Below, piece by piece: positions 34,245-52,875 of a stretch of DNA of 64,000 nt. Every line of letters starts with the position of its first letter. The stretch's first letter is position 1. The stretch lies in the NCBI RefSeq assembly GCF_000427445.1, contig NZ_KE386496.1, positions 3,154,504 to 3,218,503 on the forward strand, written 5' to 3'. The notes beneath the pieces are model-generated. The model was given only the letters and a program-made list of their open reading frames with translations. It made no database searches and was not told where the DNA came from. A program made the translations under genes and the position numbers. This DNA comes from Methylocapsa acidiphila B2 (GTDB taxonomy: Bacteria; Pseudomonadota; Alphaproteobacteria; Rhizobiales; Beijerinckiaceae).

Positions 34245-34320
34245 GCGCCCATCGTCTAGCGGTCTAGGACGTCGCCCTTTCACGGCGAAAACAGGGGTTC
34301 GATTCCCCTTGGGCGCGCCA
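34245..34320 (+). tRNA. tRNA-Glu (anticodon TTC)
   Basis: A 76-nt cloverleaf with encoded CCA. The acceptor stem is GCGCCCA/TGGGCGC, the anticodon stem-loop is CGCCC-TTTCACG-GCG giving TTC, and the T-arm is GGGGTTCGATTCCCC. The 3' end with CCA lies in the 12-bp attachment core 34311-34322. The serine recombinase on the other strand reads into it, so the gene overlaps its last ~57 bp antisense. Confidence 0.95.
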
Positions 34321-35925
34321 ATTACGAACAAAACTGCGAACACCTGAATGCATAGCCTGGTCGGCGAGGACGGCGCTCTCCAGGACCGTCTTCGAGCCAT
34401 GGATGCGGATGACGCGATCATCGACCTCCACAGCCTCGATCAGCGATCGCAAATAGGCTTTGCGGAAGGGGATTTCTCCAGTCGTTATGTTCTCGCGCAT
34501 GAGCGAGCCGAACCGGGCGATCTTGTCTGCATCCAATCGAACCGCCGGTCCGTGGCTCTTGATCCGGTCGAGGGCTGATGCGGCCTTGTCACGGTCAGTC
34601 TTGAACTTAGCGATTTGCTCCTTCAACAGCTCGTCGAAGTCGGTCATTCCCTCGGCGACGAGCTTATAAAGCCGACGAAGTTTGTCCTCGGCAGTGCCGA
34701 CTTCACGTCGAAGAGCTTCGATTCGCGCCTGAACCTCGGCATCCGTCTTGAGGCGCCGGTCCGCGACGGATTGGAGAAGGGCTTCCAATCGATCTGGAAC
34801 GAGGATGCGGTCAGCGACATGCTCGGTCACGAGCCGGTCGAGCTTGTCCATCGGGATCGAGCGGCCCTTGCAGGCGGTCTCCCCGATGCGCATGGCGGAG
34901 GAGCATGTGTAATACCGATAGATATTACCGCTCTTCGACGTTCCTGTGCGGAGCGTCATCGCGCCGCCGCAGGAAGCGCAATGGGCAAGCCCCGTGAGGA
35001 GGATTGGCCCGGTGACGGCACGTGGCGGATTAACGTGCGGGTTCTTGGCCTGGAGTGTCCTTTGCACCTTGTCGAATGTCTTCCGATCAATGATCGCCGG
35101 AACGCTAATGGGGATGATCTCGTTCTGCGGCTTTGCCTGCCGCGTCTTTGAATTGCGCTTGTTGAAGCTCCAGGCGCCGACATAGACCGGGTTCGTCAAA
35201 ATGCCGTGGACTGGACCAATGCCGAAACGGCCGCCAAGGCGGGTCCGATAGCCCTTGGCATTGAGGTGCTTTGTTACCTCCTTAACGCCCATAGGACCGC
35301 TTTGTCCGTCACCGTGGGCATAGAGCTCGAACATGAGTCGGACAATCTCGGCTTCGACGGGATCGATGATGATTCTCTTCTTGGTGCGATGGCCGCGTTT
35401 CTCGACCTCTTCGAGGGTAAAGCCGAGCGGCAGGCGGGAGCCATTATAGAAGCCCTGGCGGGCATTCTCCTTCATGGCGCGGAGGACATGCTTGGCGTTT
35501 TCCCGCGATTGGTACTCGTCGAAGAGTGCAATGACTTGCCGCATCATGACTTGGGAAGGATCATCTCCGAGTTCCTGGGTGATGGAGATAAGCCGCACGC
35601 CGTGCTTGGCGAGCTTGCGGATGTACATCTCAAGGCCAAAGGCATCCCGAAAGAAGCGGCTGAAACTATGGACGACGATGACGTCGAAGGGACGATCGTC
35701 ATCGCAGGCACGCTCGATCATCCGCTGGAATTCAGGCCGACTATCGTCCATCGCTGACGCGCCAGGCTCGACATATTCGCCGGCAACGGACCAGCCTTGG
35801 CGCTCGCAATAGGCAGCGGTTTGGAGGCGCTGATCGGGGATCGAGAGATCGACCTCGGCCTGCCGGGTCGTTGAAACGCGGAGATAGAGGGCGGCTCGGC
35901 TAGCAATGGGCAGAGTGACGTTCAT
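34264..35925 (-). CDS. Large serine recombinase (integrase of the tRNA-Glu element)
   Basis: A 553-residue large serine recombinase that should integrate and excise the element. The resolvase domain (about 8-150) has the nucleophile in ALYLRVSTTRQ, then IVVHSFSRFFRD and EYQSRENAKHVLRAMKENARQG. The Recombinase domain follows (LPLGFTLEEVEKRGHRTKKRIIIDPVEAEIVRLMFELYA). The zinc-ribbon region has CASCGG ... C-x10-C, and a coiled coil lies near 390-450. The last 15 residues (QGESNPCFRRERATS) are encoded by the antisense of tRNA-Glu, beyond the attachment core. In the excised circle this tail would be replaced by sequence from the other end. The gene starts 57 bp after a small partner gene. Confidence 0.93.
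   Translation of the reverse strand: MNVTLPIASRAALYLRVSTTRQAEVDLSIPDQRLQTAAYCERQGWSVAGEYVEPGASAMDDSRPEFQRMIERACDDDRPFDVIVVHSFSRFFRDAFGLEMYIRKLAKHGVRLISITQELGDDPSQVMMRQVIALFDEYQSRENAKHVLRAMKENARQGFYNGSRLPLGFTLEEVEKRGHRTKKRIIIDPVEAEIVRLMFELYAHGDGQSGPMGVKEVTKHLNAKGYRTRLGGRFGIGPVHGILTNPVYVGAWSFNKRNSKTRQAKPQNEIIPISVPAIIDRKTFDKVQRTLQAKNPHVNPPRAVTGPILLTGLAHCASCGGAMTLRTGTSKSGNIYRYYTCSSAMRIGETACKGRSIPMDKLDRLVTEHVADRILVPDRLEALLQSVADRRLKTDAEVQARIEALRREVGTAEDKLRRLYKLVAEGMTDFDELLKEQIAKFKTDRDKAASALDRIKSHGPAVRLDADKIARFGSLMRENITTGEIPFRKAYLRSLIEAVEVDDRVIRIHGSKTVLESAVLADQAMHSGVRSFVRNWRAQGESNPCFRRERATS
34311..34345 (+). other. attL of the tRNA-Glu element
   Basis: The core GGGCGCGCCAAT overlaps the tRNA-Glu 3' end including CCA. 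The arm AAAACTGCGAACACCT lies at 34330-34345, seven bases inside the core. The arm also encodes the conserved GVRSF of the recombinase C-terminus on the minus strand. Confidence 0.8.
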
Positions 35926-35981
35926 CGCCGGGGACCTCTCTTAAGTTCGGCATCGGGATCACATGGACCGACACTGCGTCG

Positions 35982-36272
35982 TCACTTTAGAAGGTCGTTG
36001 AGGACCTTCCGCAAGAAAGCCTCTATCACTTCGACTTCATCAGAGGTGATAGGAACGATCTCCGGCCAATCGTCGATGACGCCCCAGGCCTCCGAATCAT
36101 GCCCTTGCATGTCATCCGGTGCAAGCAGTTCTGGGGACCTCCCAGATGGTTGCGGACAATAATTTGATTCTTCCGGCCGCGACGTGGCGAAAGCCTCGGC
36201 AGGCGACATCGCCTCTTCGCGAGACTTTAAGCTTTTCGTCTCTTTTGGATGAAAGGCGCGCGGTCGGAGCAT
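35982..36272 (-). CDS. Small hypothetical protein upstream of serine recombinase
   Basis: A 96-residue protein (MLRPRAFHPKETK) or, from an internal Met, about 75 residues (MSPAEAFATSRPEESN). The conserved-looking part is the acidic C-terminus VIDDWPEIVPITSDEVEVIEAFLRKVLNDLLK, a pattern I recall beside recombinases of this type in Hyphomicrobiales. It is on the same strand as the recombinase and 56 bp before it, which suggests co-transcription. It may be a regulator or directionality partner; this is inference from position only. Confidence 0.6.
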   Translation of the reverse strand: MLRPRAFHPKETKSLKSREEAMSPAEAFATSRPEESNYCPQPSGRSPELLAPDDMQGHDSEAWGVIDDWPEIVPITSDEVEVIEAFLRKVLNDLLK

Positions 36273-36588
36273 GTCCGCAGGATCGCGCCAATCTCTCTCA
36301 ACACGAATAGCCCAATTTTACGCCACAGTACGATGCCGCAAAGGAACGTAATAGGTCGCCGAGAAGCGTAAAAATACTTGCCTTGTGCAGGCGGGGAAAG
36401 ATGCGGCGTTATCTGGAGCAGATTAACCGATGTCTATTTAACGTTCGAGCACGCAACTGTCATCCTGCACAATGACGACTGGACGCGGCCCGCGTAGTTT
36501 TTGCCCCCGGCGGACCGCCCGAACCCGCAGCGCCTCATTCATCAGAGCCCGCTTCGAATCGATCGTCGGCGGAAGCGCCAAAACTCAC
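36273..36588. other. Intergenic region, no gene seen
   Basis: About 315 bp between the end of the large nuclease gene and the small recombinase partner. The plus frame 36472-36780 is the antisense of the nuclease gene end with a non-coding start. No RNA or terminator is obvious. Confidence 0.4.
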
Positions 36589-39500
36589 CTAGAGACTGTC
36601 GAGTTCGGAGAAAAGATGCAAGGTAACGCGGGATTCCATTCGTTTCCATGCAAACTTCATTGGTACCGGATTTTTAAATACGAGATGTCCCTCAATTTGT
36701 GGTGTGTTACTAAAGCCAAGATATTTCGCAACTTCCAACGGATGCGCCGAAATGATCTCTATGCGCCGCAAATGGCGTAACAAGTGATCTGGCTTGCTAT
36801 CGGAGCCCAATTCTCCTCGAAAATCGCCGAGTTGTTCTGCGATTTCGCCATCCGTTTTGCGATGCTGGACGTCCTTGCATTCGATTAGGAGGACTCGGTT
36901 TGTATCGTCGCGCCATGCCAGAACATCGACATCCCCGTAATCCTGTTCAAATCCTTTCTGCAAAAGCTTGGTGACGCGTACCTCCGGTTCTGCCTTCCAG
37001 CCGAGGTCTTTCAGCCGTTCCGCGACGGCTATGCTGAACTCGCGACCCATGCGCTTTCGTGATTCACCTGCCCAACGTTTCATCTTTGGCTTCAATTGTC
37101 GTAGCGGATAATCGCCGCGATGATAATTCCCGATCATATAAACTACCGCATCGCGTACGATGCCCGGCGCTACAATGATCGCAGGATCTTGTTCTTCATC
37201 AAGTTCGATCAGTGGCATTCGCAAGACCGAAAGTCGTCGTCGGAACCGCCATGGAAATCGATCTCGTTCCTCATATCCGTCGGGAACGCTGCGCCACTGC
37301 GGTCGACCTTTGAACGTCAGGGCATCAATAAGTGTGGCTGCAGCGTCCGGCTCGATCAAATGTTCTTGTTCTATCGCGTCAAGCAGCTCGCCTTTTTTTA
37401 GCGTAAAAATAGCTCGGCGGCGTTTTATGCCAATGTTTTCCACCGCGTCGACAAATGTTCTTATAGCGTGAAAACTGGCTCCGAACTGTTCCTCCAGTGC
37501 TTCGTTGAATTCGATTCCAAAGGCATTCGCATCAGTGCTTTTAATTTCCGGCTCGTCCAAATTTTTGGCGTAGTTCTTGATGTTATCCGCTACTGTCAAA
37601 TCGATTCCAAGCCGGCCGTACGGACTTATGATTTCGTTATGAAACGCCACGTTGGCGTGAATGTCGCCCAAAGGCGTGATACGAAGCCGGGGCTCCATAG
37701 CATCCCAATGAATGGCGTCAGACCAACCTCCAAAAGCGGGAATCAACAAGACTTTGGCCATCAAGCGCGACACATCCCGTCGACCTGGCTCCTGACCCCC
37801 CGTCATAGGGCACTCACAAATTGCGAATTCAACGAGGAGTCGAGAAGCCTGAAATACCGCATTAAGCTCGGCTTCATGCTCCGCAATGGTTTGAAGAGCT
37901 GCTTCTCTGTCGCTGTGAAGGGCAAGGACGGCACCGGCAGTACGTCGCCAATTGTCACGTTCGTTGACAGCACTTTCATGATTCATTAGCGCGAACATGA
38001 TGACAGATCGTCGGTCAAGTTGCCGTAGATCCTCACATAGTTCATTTTCCAGCATTTGGACTATGTCGCTCAGATAAGCGGTGCAGTTCGCCTTGCCGCG
38101 AATATCCCCACCGAGCTTGCGATCACGCACACACCATCCCAAACCAAGTTTGATAAGCGCTGCATCGTCGGCGTCCACCGTGACCGGAGAGATCCACACG
38201 GAATCACGTACGAAATCCCTGAATCGTCGAGCCATAAATGCATGGCTCTGACGGGCGCTGGTATTCGGTGCGATTCTTTGAACAACCGCCTCTTGCTCAG
38301 TTTTCGACAAGGTGCGGCCTGCAAGCTGTGCAAATCCTTCAATGCTGCGCGTGATCAGCGCCCGTTCCGCGATGTTCTCCGGATGACGAATTGCGTCCTC
38401 AAAAGCCGGCCCAATAACCAAATCGAGGATCGAGCTGCCAGAATGCGCTTCCACGCTTATGGCGGCTATGGCTTCGTCAAATGCCATGAATTCATTTTTA
38501 CCCTCGGCTTTTCGATCTCCCATCTTGCCTTCAAATGTTACGCGCCAAAGTAACGGCTCTAAAGGAAGCTCTGGTAAGACATCTTCCAAAATAGGAACCA
38601 TCCTGCACAGCCAAGTCTTCAGCATTTGCGCGCGTTCAAAAGCCCAATATCCCGCAATTTCCGGAGCCGTATGGAGTTCAACCCACCAAGGCCGCGTTGA
38701 AGATTCATAGACGCAACTCGGCCACTGTTCTCCGATACAGTCTTCCTCAGCCACATAGAAGGGCGTATTGCGGTCTTCTTCGAAGAGCGATTTTCCTTCT
38801 TTTTGAACCTTGACCCACGAGCCTTCGATGTCCCGGATACTGTGAACGTCCGACTGTAGAGCAGCTTCGTGCCGCACACTCCTCAAGGCGTTCTGCTCAA
38901 TCATAATGAAGGTAGAGCGGTCATCCTCGCCATCTGCGAAATCCTCGGGTAAATCTCCATGTGGAACGAGATGACCACCAAGTGATCTGGCCCAACCGAT
39001 CAGATTCAGAAGGCCGTTGACGTTTTGTAACGTCACACCGAGCTGTTCGAGACGAGCTTGCGCCTCAAGAAGGCGCCAAAGGGATATGGCTGTGAAATCG
39101 CGAAGCGAACTAAGCGTCAGCAAATCGGACGCGCTGATGAATTCGAGCTGCCAATTCCTGCGTTCTTTTTCGGATGTGAAATCAATTATGGCCCTGCCAA
39201 TTCCGCATCCCACTAGCACAGTGAGACACTCTCGGAAGCCCGGCATTTTGTGCGCGCCTACATAGGCGTTGTCTATGCAGACATCGACTTGCTCGGCTAG
39301 CTTGACATTATTCTTTGCCGGATAGGCGCCGAGCAATCCGTTATTTTCGAAATCTTCCAGAGTGTCGACGAAGAAAACTAAATTGATATAAAGGCCGTGG
39401 TCTGCTTGCATCATGACGCTGGCAAGAAATCCGCTATCTGTTCTTTGAAATTCGACAGGAGCTCCAGAAGGCAAGCCGAGCAGCGACGTATTAGAGAAAA

Positions 39501-40389
39501 GGTTTGCGTAGGCGATAGCCATCGCCCCCGCGAACATTTCTCGAAGGTTGTACGCCTCCATCTCTTCAACGACGTAGCGGCGAATAGCAGCGCTCACCGC
39601 CGTCGGAAGCATCAGAAACACGTCTCCATTACGGTATGCGACCGGGTTTCTTTCTAAACTGGAATGACCGATCTCTTCTTCGGCGAGATCGAAGCGCGTC
39701 GACGGGTTAAACCCAAACTCACTCAAGAGGCTTAGTGATAAACCTAACGCTTTTAAATCTGCTTCGCTAAATTTGACGGCTCGACGTAACGAACTCAAAG
39801 CGCTTAGAGTCTTCCGGCTCAGCGTGTCTTGAGGTATTTGATTTCCGAGTTCGTAACGTCGGAGTTTGGTGCGTTCGCATACGATATCGGAGAGCGATAG
39901 CAGCGCATATACGGTGTTTCGTATCTGATCAAAGTGGCCGTCTGCGGGTAACAGCTCAAGCGCATCTACGGTGCGTTGAAGATAAAATCCGGCAGACTCC
40001 CAAACTCCCTCAATAATTCGAAAATTGCCACGTGGGGTGCTGATCAACGAAACAAATACATCCTCTGCGGGGTCTTCATGGCGTCCAGTCGTACCTTTCC
40101 CCAATTCGGTAAAAAGGGATGAAACAATTTTGTCGGTCGGCTTTCGGCTGCCGCGGCCCAAGGCAAGGGAAATATACACAAGAGCTTCAAGGCGGATGCA
40201 ATTGCTCTGCAATTCCGGGACCGTCAACAGTCCTGAGAAGGCTGTAGCCAGGCGCAATGGGTCGTATTCATTTAGCGTTGAAAAGAGTTGCTGATGCTCA
40301 TTTATGATCGCCTTCAGCGGCACCTTGCCAAACCCCAATGATGGGAGAATTGAAAAAATATCTTCGGGATTAAATGCTGAGTCATTCAT
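36589..40389 (-). CDS. Large unrecognised protein with C-terminal PD-(D/E)XK nuclease domain
   Basis: From ATG 40389 (MNDSAFNPEDIFSILPSLG), with Shine-Dalgarno GGAG six bases upstream, the product has 1266 residues. I do not recognise the bulk. It has no Walker A motif, signal peptide or clear membrane segment and is mostly alpha-helical with Leu-rich stretches. The N-terminal part has a phrase EDPAEDVFVSLISTPRGNFRIIEGVWESAGFYLQRTVDALE. The last ~130 residues read FSIAVAERLKDLGWKAEPEVRVTKLLQKG, then YGDVDVLAW (Asp ~1150), RVLLIECKDVQ (Glu ~1168, Lys ~1170). This is a restriction-endonuclease-like fold with D...ExK and a following Gln. Lower GC and placement inside a mobile element beside restriction genes suggest an anti-phage or anti-plasmid role, which is inference. 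Confidence 0.8.
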   Translation of the reverse strand: MNDSAFNPEDIFSILPSLGFGKVPLKAIINEHQQLFSTLNEYDPLRLATAFSGLLTVPELQSNCIRLEALVYISLALGRGSRKPTDKIVSSLFTELGKGTTGRHEDPAEDVFVSLISTPRGNFRIIEGVWESAGFYLQRTVDALELLPADGHFDQIRNTVYALLSLSDIVCERTKLRRYELGNQIPQDTLSRKTLSALSSLRRAVKFSEADLKALGLSLSLLSEFGFNPSTRFDLAEEEIGHSSLERNPVAYRNGDVFLMLPTAVSAAIRRYVVEEMEAYNLREMFAGAMAIAYANLFSNTSLLGLPSGAPVEFQRTDSGFLASVMMQADHGLYINLVFFVDTLEDFENNGLLGAYPAKNNVKLAEQVDVCIDNAYVGAHKMPGFRECLTVLVGCGIGRAIIDFTSEKERRNWQLEFISASDLLTLSSLRDFTAISLWRLLEAQARLEQLGVTLQNVNGLLNLIGWARSLGGHLVPHGDLPEDFADGEDDRSTFIMIEQNALRSVRHEAALQSDVHSIRDIEGSWVKVQKEGKSLFEEDRNTPFYVAEEDCIGEQWPSCVYESSTRPWWVELHTAPEIAGYWAFERAQMLKTWLCRMVPILEDVLPELPLEPLLWRVTFEGKMGDRKAEGKNEFMAFDEAIAAISVEAHSGSSILDLVIGPAFEDAIRHPENIAERALITRSIEGFAQLAGRTLSKTEQEAVVQRIAPNTSARQSHAFMARRFRDFVRDSVWISPVTVDADDAALIKLGLGWCVRDRKLGGDIRGKANCTAYLSDIVQMLENELCEDLRQLDRRSVIMFALMNHESAVNERDNWRRTAGAVLALHSDREAALQTIAEHEAELNAVFQASRLLVEFAICECPMTGGQEPGRRDVSRLMAKVLLIPAFGGWSDAIHWDAMEPRLRITPLGDIHANVAFHNEIISPYGRLGIDLTVADNIKNYAKNLDEPEIKSTDANAFGIEFNEALEEQFGASFHAIRTFVDAVENIGIKRRRAIFTLKKGELLDAIEQEHLIEPDAAATLIDALTFKGRPQWRSVPDGYEERDRFPWRFRRRLSVLRMPLIELDEEQDPAIIVAPGIVRDAVVYMIGNYHRGDYPLRQLKPKMKRWAGESRKRMGREFSIAVAERLKDLGWKAEPEVRVTKLLQKGFEQDYGDVDVLAWRDDTNRVLLIECKDVQHRKTDGEIAEQLGDFRGELGSDSKPDHLLRHLRRIEIISAHPLEVAKYLGFSNTPQIEGHLVFKNPVPMKFAWKRMESRVTLHLFSELDSL

Positions 40390-40453
40390 TGCCATCTCCG
40401 TTAGAAAGGGAGCATCCGCTCCCAATTCGCCTTAACCTGCATGGCAGGCCACG

Positions 40454-40539
40454 GCCGGACCGGCGACCGGCGGTCAAGGCCGTGAGCCATCGGGGGCGCG
40501 AAGCGCCCGCCTTGACGGCCGGGAGAAGGTCCGGCTCAC
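40454..40539. other. Multi-stem structured element in intergenic region
   Basis: Nested perfect stems: GCCGGACC (40454-40461) with GGTCCGGC (40528-40535), GTCAAGGC (40473-40480) with GCCTTGAC (40509-40516), and GGGCGC/GCGCCC around a GAA loop (40494-40508). A further pair, GTGAGCC (40482-40488) with GGCTCAC (40533-40539), shares bases with the outer stem, so the two are mutually exclusive. It lies in the 5' region of the large nuclease gene. It could be an RNA switch, an attenuator, or a transposon remnant. Confidence 0.45.
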
Positions 40540-40608
40540 TGCCCCAGCAGGTACAACGGCTCAGCAGATGCTGGACATGGAGTTGTAATGCGCTCAATTG
40601 GTTACAGG

Positions 40609-41304
40609 CTAAGGGGGAGGCGGAAGCGCCGCCAGCAGATCAAGCTTTTTCCAACGAGAATACTGTTCTAGCATTTCATCAGCCCTTGCCAAAACGGGCA
40701 CTCCGTTAGGATGGCTTTTTGCCCAACCCACAACGTGATCCCAAATTCGGCCTGTATGACCAAGGCAATCTGACAACATCAATTGGGCGACTGCTTTGTC
40801 GTCATTGAGCAGGGCCCAAGAGCCAGGCACTGGGTGACCACCTAACTCGCAGTGATACCCGTAATCTACGCTGCGGAAATGGTCACCTGCAGCCGCTCGG
40901 ATTTTCGCTGGAGCAAAAAAGTTTCTTCGTTCGTCACGCGAACTGCGAAGCCAACGCGCTGCTTCCTCGTCTTTAGCTTCGAACGCCCATGCCAGATATT
41001 CTACCTCGACCAACTGACGGATAAGAGCAGAGCCAGCGTAGTGGCGACCATCTGTAATAAGATCGGCACTTGCGGAAGTAAGTTGGCTACCAATTTTCAA
41101 TAGCATGGAAACGGCGACAGTAGCATCGTTGCCGTGCCCGAAAGGCGATAGGCTGTCACGTCGGTCTGTTCCAATGAGGTGCCCGACTACATGAAGTTCT
41201 GTTCCGACTTTTTGGAATACGGTCGAGGTAAAATGCGCAAGACCAATGCGTATTTCGACCAGATCAGCTCTTAGAGCTGCTTTTCGGATATCTTCCTTGT
41301 TCAT
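40609..41304 (-). CDS. DUF5677-like hypothetical protein
   Basis: From ATG 41304 (MNKEDIRKAALRADLVEIRIGLAHFTSTVFQKV) it has 231 residues; the frame is open to 41370. It is helical, with LLKIGSQLTSASADLITDGRHYAGSALIRQLVEVEYLAWAFEAKDEEAARWLRSSRDERRNFF as its core. The 'ALIRQLVEVEYLAWAF' phrase resembles DUF5677 proteins, whose function is not established. Some relatives look HEPN-like, but no R-x4-6-H motif is evident to me. It precedes the large nuclease gene on the same strand, so the two may form a pair, although 220 bp with strong secondary structure separate them. Confidence 0.6.
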   Translation of the reverse strand: MNKEDIRKAALRADLVEIRIGLAHFTSTVFQKVGTELHVVGHLIGTDRRDSLSPFGHGNDATVAVSMLLKIGSQLTSASADLITDGRHYAGSALIRQLVEVEYLAWAFEAKDEEAARWLRSSRDERRNFFAPAKIRAAAGDHFRSVDYGYHCELGGHPVPGSWALLNDDKAVAQLMLSDCLGHTGRIWDHVVGWAKSHPNGVPVLARADEMLEQYSRWKKLDLLAALPPPP

Positions 41305-41630
41305 TAGATTTCCAGGTGATGAACGAACTAGCACGATAGACAGATTGCTCCATTCACAATAAACCTGCAAAACGTTGAAATCGGCCTTTGCGGAAGCATC
41401 CGAAAATCCGGACTGATTAAGTCCGCAACAGAGGTTTTCGCCAACGATCCTCTTTTACAGCCCCTAACCGAAGCGTTCTTTTTCTCTCGAGGCTCCATTC
41501 GATGCCGACGTCGTCGCCGCGGACTTCCGAGATAGCCTAGAGCGTCTCAGGCTGCTCCGGTGCTGTCGGTGGCTTGGTGCGCTGGGGACAGGCCACGATG
41601 CCCACTCATCATCATCCACGTCGCCATCGG
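41305..41630. other. Intergenic region, no gene seen
   Basis: About 325 bp between the DUF5677-like gene and the AlpA gene. A plus frame at 41560-41766 overlaps the AlpA gene antisense and has no domain. No RNA gene visible. Confidence 0.4.
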
Positions 41631-41965: not shown

Positions 41966-44900
41966 TCAAAGTCCAAGGCCCCGACCTCTGCCGAGACCGA
42001 GGCCGTAATGGAAGTCGAGTTCGAGGCCAAGACGCCGCTCCAATTCCATCTGGAGACCAAGCTCTCTCTTGCGATTGGCGAGGAGCGATTCCATCTGCGG
42101 ATCGCGTTCGAGGCTCTTCGCCATGTCGCCCATGGCTGATCGTGTCACTCTGTAGCTGGACATGTCACCCGCCTCATACTGGCGCTGGCTGGCCTGATTG
42201 AGCTTCTGCCAGCGTTCCACAAAGCGGTCGGCGCGCTTGGCAGGGTCGATGCGGAGTTCGGTTTCAAGCTGGAGCGCGCGAATGGCGCGGTTGGGGCTGG
42301 CCGTGGCCGCCTCATGGACAAGGTTCGGGTCTTTGACATAGGCCGCCTCTGCATCGCGCCAGCCGTAGGGGCGTACCGCCTCGAAGGCTTCCCGCGCGTC
42401 GTTCAGTTCGCGCATCTGCTCGGGGCTGCCCTTACCATCTGCATCTCCGGTGGCGAGAATCGCATCCACGGCACGGGCATGGCGGATGAGCGCCCTTGTG
42501 CGGGCATTGCGCAGGGCCTCCGCTGTGTCCCTGGCAACCTCTCTCGCAGGCGACGCAGATTCGTGCCGCGTGCCCATTCCGGCGCTTTCCCTTTCCGGTT
42601 GCTGCACCGCCTCCGGGGCGTATGCGGCGTCTCCGCGGTCGCGCAACCCGTCGAGCAGACCCTCGATCCGGTCGCGCACCTTCTCCGGCACGATCCTGCG
42701 CACGATCTCGGCGACCCGCGCGCGGAAGGTGATCCCGCGCCGCTCGGCATAGGTCTGCGCCGGGTCAAGCTGTTCATAATCCGAGGCCATGTCCTTGGCG
42801 CGTTGTCGCGACAGGGTCTTCACCAGTCTGTCCGGACCGGCGAAGTCGTCACGCCCATAATGCAGCTCCATGCCGTCGCGATGCCGCGACAGGGCGACAT
42901 AGCTGCCATGGGCGTCCAGGCCTGGCGTCACTAGCAAATGGGCGCGGTCGACGGTCATGCCCTGCGCTTTGTGGATGGTCGCCGCATAGCCATGGTCGAT
43001 GCGGTCGTAATCCTTGAGGTCGAAGGGGATGGCGCGTCCGTCATCGGTCCGCACGGACATGGATCGTGCGGTAACCTGCTCGATCGTTCCGAGCGTGCCG
43101 TTCTTGACTCCAAGACCGCGCTCATTCTGAAGGAACATGATGCGGTCGCCGCTGGCGAAGTTGCGCGTGCCGCGTTCGACCGTGAGACGCACGTCATGGC
43201 CCAAATCGCCGGCGGCCCGCATCCGTTCACGTGCGGCTTCGTTGAGGGCATGAACCTCGGCATTGGTGTGGGTCAGGATGATGCGGCTCTTGTCTGCCGC
43301 CGCCTGCCGGTCGCGGTCCCAGCGCTCGATCAGATTGTTCCGCGCGTCCTTCCGTGTCTGGGCGGCATGGACCATGCCGCGACTGTCATAGGCATGGATC
43401 GCATCGCTGGTTCGGCCCGTCGCCAGATCGCGCGTGGCGTCGCGCTGCCAGTCTTCCCGCTGACGTCGCACTTCGCCGATCTCGGCGCCACCATGACGCT
43501 CGTAGATCGAGCGGAAGGCCGCTCCTGCCTCGATGGATTGCAATTGTTGCGGATCGCCGACAAGCACCACCTTGGCCCCGGCATCTGCAGCGTGAGACAG
43601 CACGCGCTCCAATTGCCGCGTGCCGACCATGCCCGCCTCGTCGATCACCAGAACATTGCGCGCCGAGAGCCCGTCGCGGCCCTGTCCCCAGCCATGTTCC
43701 AGGCTGGCAATGGTTCGCGACGCGATGCCGGATCCGCTTTCGAGATTTTCAGCGGCGATACCGGAGAGGGCGACGCCGCGGACCTCGTAGCCCGCCGCTT
43801 CCCAGGCTTCGCGCGCCACGCCCAGCATCGCGCTCTTCCCCGTTCCGGCATGGCCGACCACCAGGCCCAGATCGCGTCCGTCCGTGATATGCGCCAGTGC
43901 GTCGGCCTGCTCAGCTGAAAGGACAAGACCGCGCGCCTCGGCTTGGGCTAGGGCCGCCAGCCTGTCGGCGTGCTCCACCTCATGGCGTTCCCGCTCGGCC
44001 ATGAGTTCGGCGGCGCGGTGCAGGCGCTGTTCAGCCTCAATCATCGCGCCGGTTGTGAACCGATCCTCGCTCTGTCCGTCCTTGCCCAGCTCAACCAGAT
44101 CGGGTGCGCCCCGCATCGCGCCCATCACGGCATTGAACTGCTCGACGCCATCGCTGTGCCGGTTTGCGAACTTCGCCATGTCGCGGCGCGTGAAGGTGGA
44201 TTGCTGATGCGTGATGGCATCCAATGCGATGGAAGGATCGGCGATGATCCTCTCGCCATTGCCGCGCGCGATCTCGCGGTGCATTTTCGCGCGTTCGGCT
44301 TCAAGCCCCTGATTGTCGATGCCACGATCTTCTATACGCTTTGCGTACGCGCCGATCTGGCTTTGCGGCTCCAGCGCGATGCCCTGCGCCTCAAAGCTGC
44401 GATGATCGATCTGCGCATCTATGTCGAGGGCTGCCAGGCGTTCATTGGCAAGCTCCGCCCAGCGCTCCCGCCAGCGCTCGACCATCTCGGTGCGGTTCCA
44501 CTCCCGCACCTTGGGGCCGAAGCCCTTCTCGTCCCCGTTTACCTCTACTTGGCGCATGGTCAGCATGACATGGGCATGAGGCTTCGGCATGCCGTCTTCG
44601 CCGATGTCCCAATGCACATTGAGATCGGCGATCATGCCCCGGTCCACGAATTCGGACTGCACGAAGTCGCGGGCGAGTTCGATGCCTTGGCGCTCGCTCA
44701 TCTCGCGCGGAATGGCGAATTCGACCTCGCGGGCAAGCTGCGCGTCTTTCCTGACCTCGACGGCTTCGACATCGTTCCAGAGCCGTTCGCGATCGCTCCA
44801 CGCCTCGGGTGCATTCTCCGGCAGCATGATCTCGGAATGGACGACGCCGCGCTTGGCCGAGAAGTCGTGACTGCGCTCGATCCGCTCGTCGCGCAGCCGC

Positions 44901-44986
44901 GAGGCCGAGCGGTAGGCGGCGGATGCTACGGCGCTGGAGCCGGACTTGCGGCCAATGACCTTGACGTGAAGATGATAGATCGCCAT
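41966..44986 (-). CDS. traA: Ti-type conjugative relaxase/helicase TraA (MOBQ)
   Basis: A 1006-residue relaxase starting at ATG 44986 (MAIYHLHVKVIGRKSG), the standard TraA start. The MobA/MobL relaxase domain has the likely nicking Tyr25 (ASAAYRSASRL) and the metal-binding HxH in KPHAHVMLT. A RecD-like helicase follows, with Walker A GHAGTGKSAMLG, then VLVIDEAGMVGTRQL and VLVGDPQQLQSIEAG, and the C-terminal YAATIHKAQGMTVDRAHLLV. It nicks oriT (45016-45044) and unwinds the strand to be transferred. The region beyond residue ~700 is a variable C-terminal domain. Functional motifs all look intact. Confidence 0.94.
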   Translation of the reverse strand: MAIYHLHVKVIGRKSGSSAVASAAYRSASRLRDERIERSHDFSAKRGVVHSEIMLPENAPEAWSDRERLWNDVEAVEVRKDAQLAREVEFAIPREMSERQGIELARDFVQSEFVDRGMIADLNVHWDIGEDGMPKPHAHVMLTMRQVEVNGDEKGFGPKVREWNRTEMVERWRERWAELANERLAALDIDAQIDHRSFEAQGIALEPQSQIGAYAKRIEDRGIDNQGLEAERAKMHREIARGNGERIIADPSIALDAITHQQSTFTRRDMAKFANRHSDGVEQFNAVMGAMRGAPDLVELGKDGQSEDRFTTGAMIEAEQRLHRAAELMAERERHEVEHADRLAALAQAEARGLVLSAEQADALAHITDGRDLGLVVGHAGTGKSAMLGVAREAWEAAGYEVRGVALSGIAAENLESGSGIASRTIASLEHGWGQGRDGLSARNVLVIDEAGMVGTRQLERVLSHAADAGAKVVLVGDPQQLQSIEAGAAFRSIYERHGGAEIGEVRRQREDWQRDATRDLATGRTSDAIHAYDSRGMVHAAQTRKDARNNLIERWDRDRQAAADKSRIILTHTNAEVHALNEAARERMRAAGDLGHDVRLTVERGTRNFASGDRIMFLQNERGLGVKNGTLGTIEQVTARSMSVRTDDGRAIPFDLKDYDRIDHGYAATIHKAQGMTVDRAHLLVTPGLDAHGSYVALSRHRDGMELHYGRDDFAGPDRLVKTLSRQRAKDMASDYEQLDPAQTYAERRGITFRARVAEIVRRIVPEKVRDRIEGLLDGLRDRGDAAYAPEAVQQPERESAGMGTRHESASPAREVARDTAEALRNARTRALIRHARAVDAILATGDADGKGSPEQMRELNDAREAFEAVRPYGWRDAEAAYVKDPNLVHEAATASPNRAIRALQLETELRIDPAKRADRFVERWQKLNQASQRQYEAGDMSSYRVTRSAMGDMAKSLERDPQMESLLANRKRELGLQMELERRLGLELDFHYGLGLGRGRGLGL

Positions 44987-45015
44987 CGCGACCAGATCAT
45001 TGCCACGGCAAAAGC

Positions 45016-45044
45016 TACGTCGGAACGACGTATAAGCGCGCCCT
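45016..45044 (+). other. Origin of transfer (MOBQ-type oriT)
   Basis: The 177-bp gap between divergent traA and traC holds the perfect inverted repeat TACGTCG-GAA-CGACGTA (45016-45032), followed directly by TAAGCGCGCCCT (45033-45044). This matches, apart from C for T, the nic core TAARTGCGC|CCT known from RSF1010/R1162 and Ti-type oriTs, where an inverted repeat also precedes the nick. The predicted nick is between C41 and C42 of the plus strand, or one base either side. Confidence 0.75.
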
Positions 45045-45163
45045 CGAAATGAATTTCTCGGGACTGCTCCCGCCGTTCCAGCCCGTCCCGGCAACCTTAC
45101 AGCATTCAGGCCAGCGCTCAACTATCATCCTTGCATCGACACAACTTGCGGAAAGATATGACC

Positions 45164-45493: not shown

Positions 45494-45494
45494 C

Positions 45495-46564: not shown

Positions 46565-49500
46565 ATGACTGCGACTTACCAAACTCTCTTATCTGACTCA
46601 TATTTACGTGCGGTTTTTGACAAGGAGTTTCAGGCGTTTCAGGGAAGCGCGGCTGAAAAAGCACTCATTGACAGGTTGAACAAATGGTCAAAGAAGGCCT
46701 TTCAAAAAGAGACCTCTTCGGAAGCGGCTTTCATTAGCGTGTTTTTTGAGGACACCTGGGGCTATTCGCCCAGCGGGAAAACCCACGCCGCAGATGGTTT
46801 CACTTGCTATCCGAGATTTCCGGTTGCGGGAGCTGGCGCAGGCGGAGCGATCGGCCAAGCCGACGCAGCCCTTGGCGTTTTTGGTAGTGACGATGTTCCG
46901 CCCACGCCGCAGGTCATGTGCGAATTCAAAGACGTTCGCTCCAATCTGGACGGCCCGCAGAAGCGAAAGGGTAACAATCGCTCCCCGGTGAAGCAGTGCG
47001 CCGACTATCTGCGCGAGGCAATGAAGCCCTTCTTTGGCAACGAAGCGATCCAACCCACATGGGGCATCGTAACTGACATGAACGAGTTTCGCCTTTATTG
47101 GCGAAACACGATGCCAAGCCAATATCAACGTTTCATTCTCACTAAGAAGACAACCGACGAAGGAATTTCGCTGCTGGCTGAAGGTGAAGCCCCTAGCTTT
47201 CAGCGCTTTCTGTTCATCAAACTTCTGCACGCAGACAGTCTTCTGACAAAAGGTGGGCCATCAAGCCTTCTGAAACTGCTCAAATTTCAGAGACGTAGAG
47301 AGAAGGAGATCGAGACATCGTTTTATTTGGAATACCGGGCCTATCGAGAGCGCCTGGTCGATTTGTTGATTAAGTACAATCCAAAGTTTTCTGGCACAAA
47401 GGGCCGATTGGTTCGTCTCGCTCAAAAATTCATAGATCGCTGTATTTTTGTTATGTTTTGTGAGGATATGGGCGAGCAATTGAGTTTTCCGCCTAACGCT
47501 TTGAGTGATTACCTAAGCGAATTAAGTAAGAGCAGCACCTTTGAACCCGACGAGCAGGATGCGTGGAACAAACTCAAGGAATTGTTCCATGCCATGGATG
47601 CGGGTAAAAGGTTTCGGTCACGAGCGATCAATCGCTTCAACGGTGGTTTGTTCGCGACTGATCCTGAGTTAGACAACCTCATTATTCCAAATGAAGTTTT
47701 TTGCGCCAAGCTTCAAGGGGAGAGCGAGACCCTTCTCAAGGCTCATCCCCTGACATTATTGTATTTCGCGGGAACTTACAATTTTGGCACAGCGGGCAAA
47801 GAGGGGCAGGCCATTACGCTCTACACTCTTGGCCGGATCTTTGAGCAATCGATAACCGAATTAGAGGTGCTCGAGGCAGAAAAGGAAGGGCGTGAATCTC
47901 TCACGAAAGTCACTAAACGTAAGCGTGATGGGGTTTATTACACCCCCGAATGGGTGGTCGAGCGAGTTGTTGCAGAAACTCTCGGACCCCGACTTGATGA
48001 AATCCGAGCGGAGGTTGGGTGGAGTTTTGAGATTGAAAGCGATGAAATCGCAATTGCAAAGCAGACTGCGAAATCTCCATCCGAACGCAGCGAGGTCTTT
48101 AAGAGGCACGTCCAGGGTGTCCGACTCTTTCTTGAGCGTTTGGATTCCTTCACCGTTCTCGATCCGGCTTGCGGGTCTGGGGCATTTCTGATCCATACGC
48201 TCGAATATCTTTTGCGGGAGCGGCGCCGGGCACAGCGCGAGCTGGCGCTAGTGACGGGTGGAAAGCGAGAAGAACTATTTGAGTTCAAAGCCGATGATGA
48301 AATCCGTCAAATTCTTTCAAAAAATATCTTTGGCGTAGATATAAACGCTGCATCTGTCGAGATTGCTCGGCTTGCATTGTGGCTTCACACGGCTAAATCG
48401 GACCAGCCTCTTTCTAATTTGGATACCAATATTGTGGAAGGAAACTCCCTCGTTGGAACCGAAGTTTATGAATTCAAGAAAGATCTTCTTTCGGCAACTG
48501 AAGCAAAAAAAGAAGCGATAAATCCATTCGACTACGAAAAGCGTTTCCGAAGCATTTTTAAGTCAAACAGGCCGGGGGGACCGGGTTTCGATTGTGTCGT
48601 TGGCAATCCACCATATGTGAAGCTTCAAAACTTCAAAAAGGTTTATCCCGAGACTGCGGACTTCCTTCGCAACGCCCGAGGCCATGGCGACGTACCCCGA
48701 TATCAAAGCTGCCAGACTGGCAATTACGATCTCTACCTCCCGTTCATCGAACGTGGGCTAGAGCTTCTTAACTCGCGTGGTCGACTCGGCTTTATTGCAC
48801 CTAGCCTCTGGCGTTATAACGAATATGGCGAGGGACTCCGAAAACTGCTCCACGCGGGGGGGCATCTGGACAGGTGGATCGATTTTGGGTCTTTCCAGGT
48901 CTTCGATGAAGCCATTATTTATACCGCTTTGCAATTCTATACCAAAAGTAAGAATCAGCGAGTGCGTTTCGCTCTTGCACCTACTGGAGAAATCAGCCGC
49001 ATTCACGACTGGGACGACCCGAATTGGTTTGTCACGTATAAGGAGCTTCCCAAGGAAGACACCTGGATTTTGGTGTCCCGTCCTGAACGGGCCGTCATCG
49101 ACAAACTCGGCAAATCGTGCCGTCGGCTCGACGAGATTTCCCAACAAATTTTTCAAGGGCTCATCACAAGCGCTGACCCCATCTATCACTTCGAGCGTGT
49201 AGGAAAGAATCGCTACCTATATCAGCCGCCTAAGTCAGAAGGCGCGAGGACAAAGCCTCCAGCGGAAGAAATCGAAATTGAGGATGCAATTATGCATCCC
49301 TTGGTCTCCGGCCGAGAAGCAAACAGATATCAAGTTCCTAAGACGACGACGTTTATTCTATTTCCATATAGCGTCAGTCCCGGTCAGACATCTTTGCTCT
49401 CGAAGGATGTCATGATTAGAAACTACCCGAAAGCGTGGAAACACCTTAAGGGGTTGGAAAAAAAGCTACGTGCCCGAGAAAGCAACGGCTTTGATGATGA

Positions 49501-50449
49501 CACCTGGTGGCGCTTCGGACGCCACCAAGGCATCGATAAGCAGGAAGAACCAAAACTTATTGTTGCGCAGACTGTAAAGCGCCTTTCGGTTTGTCCCGAT
49601 CACAAAGGAAAATTTTATCTGAACAACGTCCGCGTGAATGGAGTTTTGCTTAAGAGGCCTGCAGACTTTTGGTTTCTTCTCGGCATTTTGAATTCGGAAA
49701 TTGCCAACTGGGTTTTCCAACGCATCGCCAAACCGAAAGAGGGCGGCTACTTCGAAGCCAACAAACAATTCATCGCTCCCCTTCCGATTCCCAAGGCGTC
49801 GACGGCCGAGGCCGAAAAGGTCACGCTACTCGCAGAGAAATTGACGAAGCTCCACACGGCGCGGCGGGACACTTTGGCGAATCTAGAACGCCGATTTGAC
49901 GTTTGTGAAACACAGGAAAGGTCCGCAGAGTGGCTATGGCCTTCGGTTCGCAGCTTGGATGCTTGGAGAGCAAAAGCCCCGAGTGGGCTTTCCACTCGTC
50001 AGACGACTAGTTGGGCGAAGGAACAACAAGTGAAGCAAGTTGAAACCAAAATTGATGAGCTACAGGACCGTTTGCGCCCGGGCGCACGCTTGGAAGTAAA
50101 GTTGGTGAAAGGTGAGCTGCGAGTCCAGGACGACGAAACAATTGTGCTTGATGGGGTTTTCGTAGATGCCGACGAAGCCAGTCAGATTCTTATCGCTTGG
50201 CGAAATTACCTTAACCTCAATCCGCTGCCGGATAACCCTAGCGCGGCGGCATTAGCTACCAACCTGCGCTGTATAAGAATCACTGACAATGCCGCTTTAG
50301 CAAGGCAAATCGCCGACCTGGACTGTGAACTAACTAACATCGAAAAAGAGATTGTTTCTTCCGAGGCTAGCCTGAATAAGCTAGCTAATCGGCTCTATGG
50401 GCTGTCGGTGTCTGAAGTTTCGCTCGTTTATGACCAGGGGTCGGTCTGA
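46565..50449 (+). CDS. Type IIG restriction enzyme / N6-adenine DNA methyltransferase
   Basis: A 1294-residue class I SAM-dependent DNA methyltransferase with fused nuclease, Eco57I-like. A candidate PD-(D/E)XK site is D100 (GQADAALGVF), E120-x-K122 (QVMCEFKDV). Methyltransferase motif I is VLDPACGSGAFLIHTLEYLL (~531) and motif IV is VVGNPPYVKLQNF (~680). The C-terminal half holds the target-recognition region (HPLVSGREANRYQVPKTTTFILFPYS, APLPIPKA) and a final coiled coil. GC is lower than in chromosomal genes. It is followed after 123 bp by an AIPR gene on the same strand, probably a two-gene defence unit. Recognition sequence unknown. Confidence 0.88.
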   Translation: MTATYQTLLSDSYLRAVFDKEFQAFQGSAAEKALIDRLNKWSKKAFQKETSSEAAFISVFFEDTWGYSPSGKTHAADGFTCYPRFPVAGAGAGGAIGQADAALGVFGSDDVPPTPQVMCEFKDVRSNLDGPQKRKGNNRSPVKQCADYLREAMKPFFGNEAIQPTWGIVTDMNEFRLYWRNTMPSQYQRFILTKKTTDEGISLLAEGEAPSFQRFLFIKLLHADSLLTKGGPSSLLKLLKFQRRREKEIETSFYLEYRAYRERLVDLLIKYNPKFSGTKGRLVRLAQKFIDRCIFVMFCEDMGEQLSFPPNALSDYLSELSKSSTFEPDEQDAWNKLKELFHAMDAGKRFRSRAINRFNGGLFATDPELDNLIIPNEVFCAKLQGESETLLKAHPLTLLYFAGTYNFGTAGKEGQAITLYTLGRIFEQSITELEVLEAEKEGRESLTKVTKRKRDGVYYTPEWVVERVVAETLGPRLDEIRAEVGWSFEIESDEIAIAKQTAKSPSERSEVFKRHVQGVRLFLERLDSFTVLDPACGSGAFLIHTLEYLLRERRRAQRELALVTGGKREELFEFKADDEIRQILSKNIFGVDINAASVEIARLALWLHTAKSDQPLSNLDTNIVEGNSLVGTEVYEFKKDLLSATEAKKEAINPFDYEKRFRSIFKSNRPGGPGFDCVVGNPPYVKLQNFKKVYPETADFLRNARGHGDVPRYQSCQTGNYDLYLPFIERGLELLNSRGRLGFIAPSLWRYNEYGEGLRKLLHAGGHLDRWIDFGSFQVFDEAIIYTALQFYTKSKNQRVRFALAPTGEISRIHDWDDPNWFVTYKELPKEDTWILVSRPERAVIDKLGKSCRRLDEISQQIFQGLITSADPIYHFERVGKNRYLYQPPKSEGARTKPPAEEIEIEDAIMHPLVSGREANRYQVPKTTTFILFPYSVSPGQTSLLSKDVMIRNYPKAWKHLKGLEKKLRARESNGFDDDTWWRFGRHQGIDKQEEPKLIVAQTVKRLSVCPDHKGKFYLNNVRVNGVLLKRPADFWFLLGILNSEIANWVFQRIAKPKEGGYFEANKQFIAPLPIPKASTAEAEKVTLLAEKLTKLHTARRDTLANLERRFDVCETQERSAEWLWPSVRSLDAWRAKAPSGLSTRQTTSWAKEQQVKQVETKIDELQDRLRPGARLEVKLVKGELRVQDDETIVLDGVFVDADEASQILIAWRNYLNLNPLPDNPSAAALATNLRCIRITDNAALARQIADLDCELTNIEKEIVSSEASLNKLANRLYGLSVSEVSLVYDQGSV

Positions 50450-50572
50450 TATTTTAGTCTTTGCTGAAGAGGTTTAGGCTGCTCGTTAGGCGGCAGATTA
50501 TTTTGATTTCCTAAGGCCGGACGAAGACAGTCAGGCCAGCGAAAACCGACTGTTAAAAATTGGGGGCTTTTT

Positions 50573-52429
50573 ATGATTCTATTTGAGGAATTTGAAGAGC
50601 AATGGCTTGAGGAAATTCGAGCCGATAACCCCAGTACGACTCAATTAGGCAACCGATTCGCGCAAAAAATCCTTCGGGACTGGCACGAGATCGACGAGGC
50701 CACGGCTGAGATTATTCTGTGCGACGGCGCGGGCGATGGCGGGATTGATGCTGCCGTCTTCGTAAAAGCCGATCCGGCGGAGGGTATCGAAGGCTCCACC
50801 TGGATTCTCGTTCAAAGCAAATATGGGACGGCACTAAGTGGCCCAAATACAATTACGCTAGAAGCGCAAAAGCTGTTTGCTACGCTTGAGGGTAAGAGGG
50901 CATCGTTATCGTCGTTATCGAATGAACTGGTGGGGCGATTGAAAACCTTCCTATCGAACATGGGCGACAGAGATAAACTGGAATACGTTGTGGCCACGAG
51001 CCGAAAGCTTGATGATCAGGAACACGAGTATCTGAACAACGTCCGCGTCCTGGGCCGGAATAAATTCGGCGATTGCTTCGATACAGATTCGGTTTCTGTT
51101 GAGACTATCTATAACAAGGTTCGTGAAGAGGAAGAGAAAGTCGTTGGCCCTCAGCTTTCGGTCAAGCTTACTACCTCAGTAACCGCTTCGACAAAAGAGC
51201 TTCATATCGGTGCAACGACGTTGCCGAATGTTTTTGCGTTTATGCAGGAATACAAAAGCAAGTCCGGCGATCTGGACATGTTATATGAAAAAAATGTTCG
51301 TAAGTTTCTGGGCAACAAACGCAAGGTCAACAAAGGCATTGAGAAGACAATCGAGACAAACCCTGAGCGGTTCGGGCTTTACAACAATGGCATCACCATT
51401 GTCGCCGAGCAGCTCTCGCACAGCACCGGCGGCGAACTTAGTCTCGTAAATCCCTTCATCGTCAATGGTTGTCAGACCACACGCTCGATCTGGTCTGTCT
51501 TACAGCGAAAGCTGAATGCAGGCGGCTCTGCGCCGACCGAAAAACAAAAGGAATGGGAAGAGCGACTTAAGCTAGGCGTGGTCGTTACTAAAATCGTTTT
51601 GGTAGGTGCGGGCGGCGAAGCGCTGCTGACGGAGACGACGCGCTACACCAACATGCAAAATGCGGTCGGTGAGAAGGACTTTATTGCACTAGAAGAAGAT
51701 TTTCGAACATGGGTGCCTGCGTTCAATAACCGCTTTGGCGTGTTTCTAGAGATCCAACGTGGGGCGTGGGAAGCGCGCCGTGCCTTCCAGAAGCAAAATC
51801 CCACGGTGACACCCTTGTATTCGGAGTCTGCAAACGCGTTCGACCTGCTCAAAGCGTATGCCGCTGGCTGGCTGGTCGAGCCCGGTATCGCCTTCGGGAA
51901 AAACCCGCCATTTGCGCCCGGCGGATCGCTCTTCAACAAAATCGTAAACGAGCCAAGTTTCGGAACAGACTCATTGTACGCGGCGTACCAGCTGCAACGC
52001 CTTGCGGGCGGATATGGTTTCGGGCGTGGAGCGCAAAAGCAATCCCGAGGCCAAACCCGCTATTTGTTTATGATGGTGGTGATCGATATCGTGAAAGATT
52101 GCCTGCTCTATCTGGGTAAAAACCGTACGAACATTGATCTTGTGAAAGCAGTCCAATCCCTTGCCGATTCAGATTTGCTTCGGCATGTCGGGGATGCAGC
52201 GATCCAGGTGATCGATGATTATATGACGAGCGGCGCAGAAGACTCTATTTATTTGGAGCCTGAGTTTCAAAAAACCAATGATCTGAATGCTTTCCTAAAG
52301 TCAGAAAAGCTCGGAAAGAGCGATGAGTTCTCGCCAAACCTCCGAACCCAGCTTTCCATGGCAAAGAAAATCTTCCGCAAAGGAGAGCAAGCAATAGCTA
52401 TCAATAAGGCTCTTAACGAAGCGATATGA
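50573..52429 (+). CDS. AIPR-family protein with Mrr-like nuclease N-terminus
   Basis: A 618-residue AIPR (abortive phage infection) protein. The N-terminus has a restriction-endonuclease-like site: DGAGDGGIDAAVF (D55...D59) and WILVQSKYG (Q81-x-K83), a QxK variant as in Mrr-type nucleases. The AIPR domain is clear from RKFLGNKRKVNKGIEKTIETNPERFGLYNNGITIVAEQ and FIVNGCQTTRSIWSVL. AIPR proteins occur in several multi-gene phage-defence systems and next to DNA-modification genes. Here it follows a type IIG enzyme, and I infer joint function. Low-GC composition indicates transfer. No other component (Z1 or MutL-like ATPase) is present. Confidence 0.88.
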   Translation: MILFEEFEEQWLEEIRADNPSTTQLGNRFAQKILRDWHEIDEATAEIILCDGAGDGGIDAAVFVKADPAEGIEGSTWILVQSKYGTALSGPNTITLEAQKLFATLEGKRASLSSLSNELVGRLKTFLSNMGDRDKLEYVVATSRKLDDQEHEYLNNVRVLGRNKFGDCFDTDSVSVETIYNKVREEEEKVVGPQLSVKLTTSVTASTKELHIGATTLPNVFAFMQEYKSKSGDLDMLYEKNVRKFLGNKRKVNKGIEKTIETNPERFGLYNNGITIVAEQLSHSTGGELSLVNPFIVNGCQTTRSIWSVLQRKLNAGGSAPTEKQKEWEERLKLGVVVTKIVLVGAGGEALLTETTRYTNMQNAVGEKDFIALEEDFRTWVPAFNNRFGVFLEIQRGAWEARRAFQKQNPTVTPLYSESANAFDLLKAYAAGWLVEPGIAFGKNPPFAPGGSLFNKIVNEPSFGTDSLYAAYQLQRLAGGYGFGRGAQKQSRGQTRYLFMMVVIDIVKDCLLYLGKNRTNIDLVKAVQSLADSDLLRHVGDAAIQVIDDYMTSGAEDSIYLEPEFQKTNDLNAFLKSEKLGKSDEFSPNLRTQLSMAKKIFRKGEQAIAINKALNEAI

Positions 52430-52839
52430 AATAAACGGTCGGCCGTTGCAGAGCTTTCTTGAGAAAAAAATCGAGATGCCGAAGTTTGGCTAGTGAGTCA
52501 GTTTGAATTTACGAATCGAACACCGCGAAGTCGTGACAACTTTTTCCACTTACACAGAGCGGGCGCGGGAAAAGAACAGAAATTTGGCGGCGGCAAGGCG
52601 GTCAGGGAGATGGCGATTTACGGACTTTCCGTGTCATCCAGTGCTCGAAAGGCGAGTCTAGCACTGGCGCGGCAGCATACCGTTCGGGCGTTCGGGTAAC
52701 TGGGTAGATCCAACTTTCGAGAGGGTGCGGCCGAAAAGTTATGAGTCCGCCTCTGCCAGCTTTATCGCAAGCCTCCTTGCAGACGTTATTGATGACGCCA
52801 AAATAAATACATAAAATTAGATCGTTATTTCAATAATAT
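52430..52839. other. Right end of the element, no gene seen
   Basis: About 410 bp between the AIPR stop and the right attachment arm. Open frames are short and unconvincing (e.g. 52493-52699). The sequence becomes AT-rich near 52800-52840, just inside the arm. Confidence 0.45.
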
Positions 52840-52875
52840 AGGTGTTCGCAGTTTTATCCTGAGGGGCGCGCCAAT
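52840..52875 (+). other. attR of the tRNA-Glu element
   Basis: The arm AGGTGTTCGCAGTTTT (52840-52855), then 8 bp, then the core GGGCGCGCCAAT (52864-52875). The arm is the inverted complement of 34330-34345. On the minus strand it supplies PQDKTANTYIIEITI-stop, the predicted alternative recombinase C-terminus in the excised form. Confidence 0.8.

Follow-up and report, generated by a model that had tools for sequence, protein, structure and literature searches.

A mobilizable element of Methylocapsa acidiphila with a putative attachment site inside its own serine integrase gene, targeting the 3' end of tRNA-Glu

Background

Elements that carry their attachment site within the gene of their own integrase have been described, and the statements given here follow the accessible parts of the cited articles. 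In the rumA ICEs of streptococci, which encode a single serine integrase, the site lies inside the integrase gene, and the C terminus of the enzyme is said to differ between the excised and the integrated form (Ambroset 2016, PMC4701971). IME_Spy2096_SNF2 also has the attachment site in its own serine integrase gene and uses snf2 as its target (PMC5357655). The Myxococcus phage Mx8 has attP in its integrase gene, and its integration replaces the C terminus and leaves a changed enzyme that is reported to be less active (as told in PMC4701971 and PMC4383910). Islands in tRNA genes with tyrosine integrases are already known, while the available part of a 2014 paper describes serine integrases as not known to target tRNA genes.

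The window analysed here is a stretch of 64,000 nucleotides from Methylocapsa acidiphila B2. An earlier note, made from its sequence alone, had proposed an 18.6-kb serine-integrase element at tRNA-Glu. This element is real, as the 12-bp repeat, the inverted arms and the integrase were all confirmed. The interpretation as a serine-integrase element with these ends was sound, but it missed that the attachment site lies within the integrase gene, which is severed on integration. It also missed that tRNA ends are the usual target of this integrase family.

Results

The ends of the element, the host gene and the two parts of the integrase gene are located as follows.

34245..34320, + strand: host tRNA-Glu(ttc) (ARAGORN; Rfam RF00005)
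34264..35925, - strand: large serine integrase (Pfam Resolvase, Recombinase and Zn_ribbon_recom; translation)
34311..34322, strand not applicable: attL copy of the 12-bp repeat (sequence match)
34330..34345, strand not applicable: integrase-side attP arm, within the integrase coding sequence (codons 527-532)
52817..52873, - strand: severed C-terminal tail of the integrase, WRAPQDKTANTYIIEITI and a stop codon, which joining of the ends puts in the integrase frame
52840..52855, strand not applicable: tail-side attP arm, within the tail codons
52864..52875, strand not applicable: attR copy of the 12-bp repeat, with crossover limits 52868-52873

In the window, searched on both strands, the direct repeat GGGCGCGCCAAT has only two copies, at 34311 and 52864. 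The 16-bp inverted arms are exact, with AGGTGTTCGCAGTTTT at 52840 and its reverse complement at 34330, and each occurs once in the window. Joining the ends yields the 59 bp that had been predicted (16 + 8 + 12 + 7 + 16), but the dyad symmetry claimed about the core is imperfect. The dyad centre of the arms falls on a base and misses the centre of GGCGCGCC by 0.5 bp, and self-complementarity is limited to 40 of the 59 positions, 32 of them within the arms. Since exact 16-bp inverted pairs more than 500 bp apart are not rare in this GC-rich window (five, counting the arm pair), the arm pair alone could be due to chance. The case for a candidate attP rests on the fact that each arm lies just inside a copy of the 12-mer and, most of all, on the recurrence of this layout in relatives. 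The GC content is 0.549 in the element versus 0.642 and 0.624 in the flanks.

As integrated, the integrase has 553 aa, and its stop codon (34264-34266) lies inside tRNA-Glu. The open reading frame thereby extends beyond the element: it crosses attL and stops within the host tRNA gene, so that about 18 codons, W536 (34320-34318) and those after it, are read from the antisense strand of the tRNA. The Trp536 codon TGG is the antisense of the tRNA-encoded CCA, and judging from the sequence the last bases of tRNA-Glu, CCA included, are rebuilt by the element. W536 does not vary among 38 aligned sequences, that of the window being one of them, and R10 and S18, the catalytic serine, are likewise invariant in this alignment. 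The domain set of a large serine integrase is present, with Resolvase, Recombinase and zinc ribbon domains detected by Pfam and, for the coiled coil, long helices at residues 377-424 and 432-455 in an AlphaFold model. This model of the integrated form has a mean pLDDT of 72, with values below 50 for residues 523-553. The closest NCBIfam models are CcrB and CcrC, and although the CcrB match has an E-value of 1.5e-54, its score of 185.6 bits does not reach the model cut-off of 900 bits.

Once the ends are joined, the integrase continues from W536 (W included) as WRAPQDKTANTYIIEITI, a tail of 18 codons followed by a stop. Comparable far ends were sought in 17 relatives, in the 20-40 kb upstream of their integrases. 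Ends with arm and tail were found in seven of them, five being top-scoring and two picked by eye from lower rows, and no clear far end was seen in this range in the other ten. One contig among the five top-scoring relatives carried three tails. A scan within 10 kb of the relatives' integrases failed because the elements are longer, and apart from the window's own end none was convincing by score; the far end of L080, recognised later, sits within this distance of its integrase.

Two groups of tails were distinguished. Group A comprises eight far ends, one from the window and the other seven from five relatives, and the selection was made with codons up to 15 in view. All eight have a stop at codon 19, and the mean pairwise differences over codons 12-16 are 0.34, 0.00 and 0.35 at codon positions 1, 2 and 3. 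A degenerate 15-codon tail pattern had 53 matching sites, that of the window among them, distributed over 36 of the 397 genomes of the order, and its reversed control had no match in these 397 genomes. For 31 of the 53 sites, one of them the window's, the DNA was available, and 27 of these have the stop at codon 19, a position that the pattern does not cover. Group B tails have the form WRAxPGEDDNYVYxIAL, and the far ends of L080, L167 and L175, identified by eye, stop at codon 18. The corresponding pattern B was found in five of 385 genomes of the class, among them the window's genome; the stop present in all five is no evidence because the pattern contains the stop codon. The tail peptide is similar in the two groups (N-Y-V/I-x-x-I), whose integrases are ~50% identical. 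Two natural uncut junctions were found. In L251, integrase residues 488-538 (54.9%) run in frame into the tail, and L223 is the second case; both integrases are truncated and could be hybrids of two elements.

Several tails lie in other arrangements. In L145 (Bradyrhizobium), three tails occur within 9 kb (rc 8069, 10578, 17057), one with an internal stop, and the row looks like several elements of the family piled up at one site. The window's own genome has a second tail, of group B (L219, G000:C2:839903-839956, - strand), and the only close integrase listed for this genome is that of the window. Tails located 0.8-1.1 kb from a tRNA in L226, L227, L236, L242 and L243 resembled mini-elements, without an integrase or an integrase-side arm. 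They were taken as remnants because this arm is absent, and they may be either remnants or unusual short units.

The targeting of tRNA genes was assessed in the best 80 of 388 relatives from a genome contig search, with 49-73% identity to the window integrase. A full antisense tRNA called by ARAGORN starts at the Trp codon in 64 of these 80 (46 Arg, 11 Ser, 6 Glu and 1 Met), and ten have the T-arm only. In the remaining six, three contigs stop there, two continue into other sequence and one is without the codon. A further set of 79 rows outside the 80, with at least 35% identity and a few places included twice (e.g. L139/L268, L293/L298, L056/L285), gave 51 antisense tRNAs, 10 T-arms, 6 early ends and 12 with neither. 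Eight of these 12 come from viral contigs and plasmids, so in the chromosomes examined a tRNA is the regular target, with exceptions elsewhere. In the family of G056, the integrase ends examined are all at a tRNA, at a T-arm or cut short.

Family integrases (~50%) with non-tRNA C-terminal ends were observed in four viral contigs (L185, L186, L187, L192) and two plasmids (L211, L212), which apparently are at other sites or rearranged. A 4.3-kb scaffold from a faecal phage collection (L213) encodes a family integrase (48%) that ends antisense in tRNA-Asn, a target absent from the 80 relatives. Three metagenome contigs (L049, L050, L091) break off at TGGCGC or TGGCGCG of the attachment site, as happens in assemblies where more than one form of the junction is present.

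A full-length integrase with its own tail was not found among the loci examined. Two junction patterns had no match in viral contigs, and at 15 viral loci with more than 35% identity (of 27) no uncut integrase was present, all being integrated, cut short or otherwise ended. The same was seen in six plasmid and phage records (of 1,334 with a match). Of the 38 plasmid records matched by the junction peptides, six were covered.

A more distant clade shows a related arrangement. The serine integrases L266 and L267, 24% identical to that of the window, end in tRNA-Met antisense in another reading frame, which in this clade (L266, L267, L317-L346) reads ..MVAGAGFEPTTFRL. In the 30 of 46 matches listed for L266, 20 overlap an antisense tRNA-Met, one lies within 300 bases of it and for nine none was called. 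Four distant serine integrases outside this clade (L259, L263, L264, L265) have no tRNA at the ends reached.

The crossover was delimited with nine attL/attR pairs, a pair being an integrase end and a tail on the same contig. In every pair the common block includes TGGCGN, N being identical at the two ends, and it is delimited by mismatches at both edges.

34315..34320, strand not applicable: crossover stretch, read as TGGCGN on the strand of the integrase (bounded by the identity within nine attL/attR pairs)

In the tRNA, these six base pairs correspond to CCA, the discriminator and the two positions preceding it. Because the centre of the arms falls on the last G of TGGCG, the exchanged dinucleotide would be CG or GN. 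The comparison leans towards GN, as in the two pairs where N is unusual (A in L061, G in L089) both sides carry the same base. A palindromic crossover dinucleotide permits both orientations. In the window, the core GGCGCGCC is palindromic, and both candidates, GC and CG, are palindromic as well. The remark in the earlier note that the core would not fix the orientation was therefore fair, yet 74 of the 80 loci are in one orientation and no inverted one was seen. An inverted tRNA at the integrase end does not occur among the 80 relatives, the six without tRNA or T-arm being judged at the integrase end only. Loss of CCA would not be the whole reason for this single orientation, because in elements with the core TGGCGCGCCA an inverted product would also rebuild CCA.

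The empty site was reconstructed from the flank beyond the right end.

52874..52893, + strand: native tRNA-Glu flank, right half of attB (similarity to the flank in relatives lacking this element)

At the right end, the 20-mer following GGGCGCGCCA agrees with the flank of tRNA-Glu in 11 relatives of the same genus that lack this element, at a mean of 12.55 of 20 positions, the highest value among 127,960 window 20-mers, and the bases at the left end score 7.09. Per relative, the match ranges from 7 (L006) to 15 of 20 in the same genus (n=11) and is only 2 to 6 of 20 in other genera (n=5). The proposed attB, the tRNA-Glu end plus the bases after 52875, is thus supported by the relatives that lack this element. 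Upstream of tRNA-Glu in the window lies recJ, and similarity extends over the recJ side at 16 of the 19 loci compared in relatives. In 17 of these 19, loci without this element, similarity to the window stops at 34320-34323; in the other two (L013 and L021) the sequence past the tRNA runs on into an integrase. One genome of the same genus has a related element at the same tRNA (L013/L270). Among the relatives compared at tRNA-Glu, neither of the outcomes named beforehand as contradictory was seen, namely the 12-mer with its flank away from tRNA-Glu in element-free genomes or sequence continuous across the proposed ends. A 1.5-kb right-flank query matched the relatives only elsewhere, mostly at dispersed repeats, and the short-flank comparison was used instead. 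Overall, the relatives support a putative empty site.

The longer genes between the ends are listed below.

36589..40425, - strand: Upx-like anti-phage protein (PADLOC Upx E 3.5e-254; NCBIfam Upx_antiphage E 1.2e-284, below cut-off)
40609..41370, - strand: 253-aa ORF with no family match in profile scans
41966..45121, - strand: MobQ/TraA-type relaxase-helicase (Pfam MobA_MobL and AAA_30; NCBIfam TraA and MobQ above cut-off)
46565..50449, + strand: type IIG restriction-modification enzyme (PADLOC REase_MTase_IIG, 1107 bits; Pfam Eco57I)
50573..52429, + strand: AIPR/AbiU-like defence protein (Pfam AIPR E 2.6e-40; PADLOC AbiU E 2.8e-31)

Since the element has its own integrase and relaxase and no conjugation pore gene was found among the longer ORFs scanned, it reads as a probable integrative mobilizable element carrying anti-phage cargo. 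Three unlike anti-phage genes (Upx, type IIG and AIPR/AbiU) lie between 36589 and 52429 in this one small mobilizable element.

Discussion

The locus is very probably a mobilizable element that has attP in its own integrase gene, targets and rebuilds a tRNA end and has its integrase tail cut off on integration. The structure of this system is well supported by the element ends, the gene layout and reading frame, the conservation of the tail, the tRNA targeting in most relatives examined and the empty site in relatives, all of them read from sequence comparison. The attP of the large serine integrase would sit inside the 3' end of its own gene, and in the presumed circle, reconstructed by joining the ends, the gene would be whole and end in the conserved 18-codon tail. 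The integrase would recombine attP with the 3' end of the tRNA gene inside the six crossover base pairs. The Trp codon TGG of the element would supply the antisense of the new CCA end, so that the tRNA stays whole. The same crossover would remove the tail and fuse the integrase gene to the antisense tRNA, and the integrated copy would consequently encode an integrase with a different C terminus. The element is probably mobile in this way, and the exchange of the tail may affect the enzyme.

How the tail acts is a matter of conjecture. By analogy with Mx8, our guess is that it favours integration and that its loss alters the activity or direction of the settled enzyme. The direction of serine integrases is normally ascribed to separate directionality factors. 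A bolder and rather doubtful extension is that tRNA-targeting serine integrases, as a large family in Alphaproteobacteria, control direction by editing their own C terminus. The tail found only in the circle would license integration, the peptide from the tRNA T-arm (mostly xDSNx) would block re-integration or enable excision, and the tRNA gene would serve as a state sensor. In this view, the distant tRNA-Met clade, with its other reading frame, would suggest more than one origin of such a mechanism.

It is quite possible that the gene spans attP and is cut by integration but that the exchange of tails has no regulatory role. The tail would then be a folding aid or a safe stop, and either end would work. 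The predicted disorder of residues 523-553 in the integrated form fits this, and so do the long integrase ORFs that integrated copies retain with varied tRNA-derived ends. A dispensable peptide is harder to reconcile with the similarity of the tails (N-Y-V/I-x-x-I) between two groups with integrases ~50% identical and with the invariant second positions of codons 12-16 in the eight tails, even though these were chosen on sight of codons to 15. It is very unlikely that the tail owes its conservation solely to a role as DNA, namely as the other half-site of attP, with the open frame as a by-product. Part of the tail does lie within an inverted arm that is presumably bound by the integrase, but the stop falls at codon 19 in all eight group A far ends and in 27 of the 31 group A pattern sites with DNA, outside both the arm and the search pattern. 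Moreover, on the tail side the conserved region is longer than the arm and shows synonymous changes, and the group B far ends (L080, L167, L175) encode the same kind of peptide although their arm symmetry looks weak by eye.

The locus could also be an ordinary serine-integrase element whose palindromic core leaves the orientation open, the overlap of ORF and tRNA being chance. The palindromic core with the crossover on GC or CG is compatible with this, and some relatives do end elsewhere (3 of 80 and 12 of 79). Such a coincidence is scarcely credible given the same register in 74 of 80 relatives and the lack of any inverted insertion among them, whereas the distant L259, L263, L264 and L265 are without a tRNA at the integrase end. 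That the element is a dead remnant which no longer moves is improbable. Neither the empty site nor the circle was seen in this particular strain, which would agree with a loss of mobility, but the integrase and relaxase ORFs are long and uninterrupted, the ends are exact, and a related element occupies the same tRNA in a genome of the same genus (L013/L270). The reading of a mobilizable element that cuts the tail of its own integrase is thus preferred here.

A family in which integration swaps the tail of the enzyme would be a natural and directly testable state switch. Furthermore, there would be serine integrases directed at tRNA ends, which have been regarded as targets of tyrosine integrases. 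The arrangement would also explain tRNA-antisense ends such as KWRTRQDSNL in recombinase genes of the family, as these ends would come from the host gene. For annotation, this means that the real C terminus must be read from the other end of the element.

The closest NCBIfam models, CcrB/CcrC of SCC elements, differ from the window integrase in their target. The SCC ccr target is rlmH. What the window element has in common with both the rumA ICEs and IME_Spy2096_SNF2, as far as the available parts of the sources describe them, is the attachment site in a serine integrase gene, and as in the rumA type the C terminus is changed. Neither rumA nor snf2 is the target here, which is tRNA-Glu in the window and tRNA-Arg, -Ser, -Glu or -Met in relatives. 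The rumA and snf2 elements disrupt protein genes, with 3' parts exchanged and a frame change in rumA, whereas the window element rebuilds its tRNA and has a conserved, in-frame tail. With the tRNA-gene genomic islands (Islander, PMC4383910), it shares the tRNA 3' end as attB and its rebuilding by the element. The parts of this combination are known, but in the accessible portions of the open-licence literature no report was found of a tRNA-targeting serine integrase with attP in its own gene. Mx8 differs in its tyrosine integrase and in an exchange of 112 residues for 13, compared with 18 for 18 in the serine integrase of the window. The archaeal suicidal integrases of the SSV type also have the target site in the integrase gene and are cut on integration, but according to the available part of PMC8371274 they are tyrosine recombinases split in two, with the catalytic domain in the second part. 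The window integrase has serine recombinase domains in Pfam and no tyrosine recombinase fold, and in contrast to the SSV type its catalytic, recombinase and zinc-ribbon domains remain whole and only the tail is lost.
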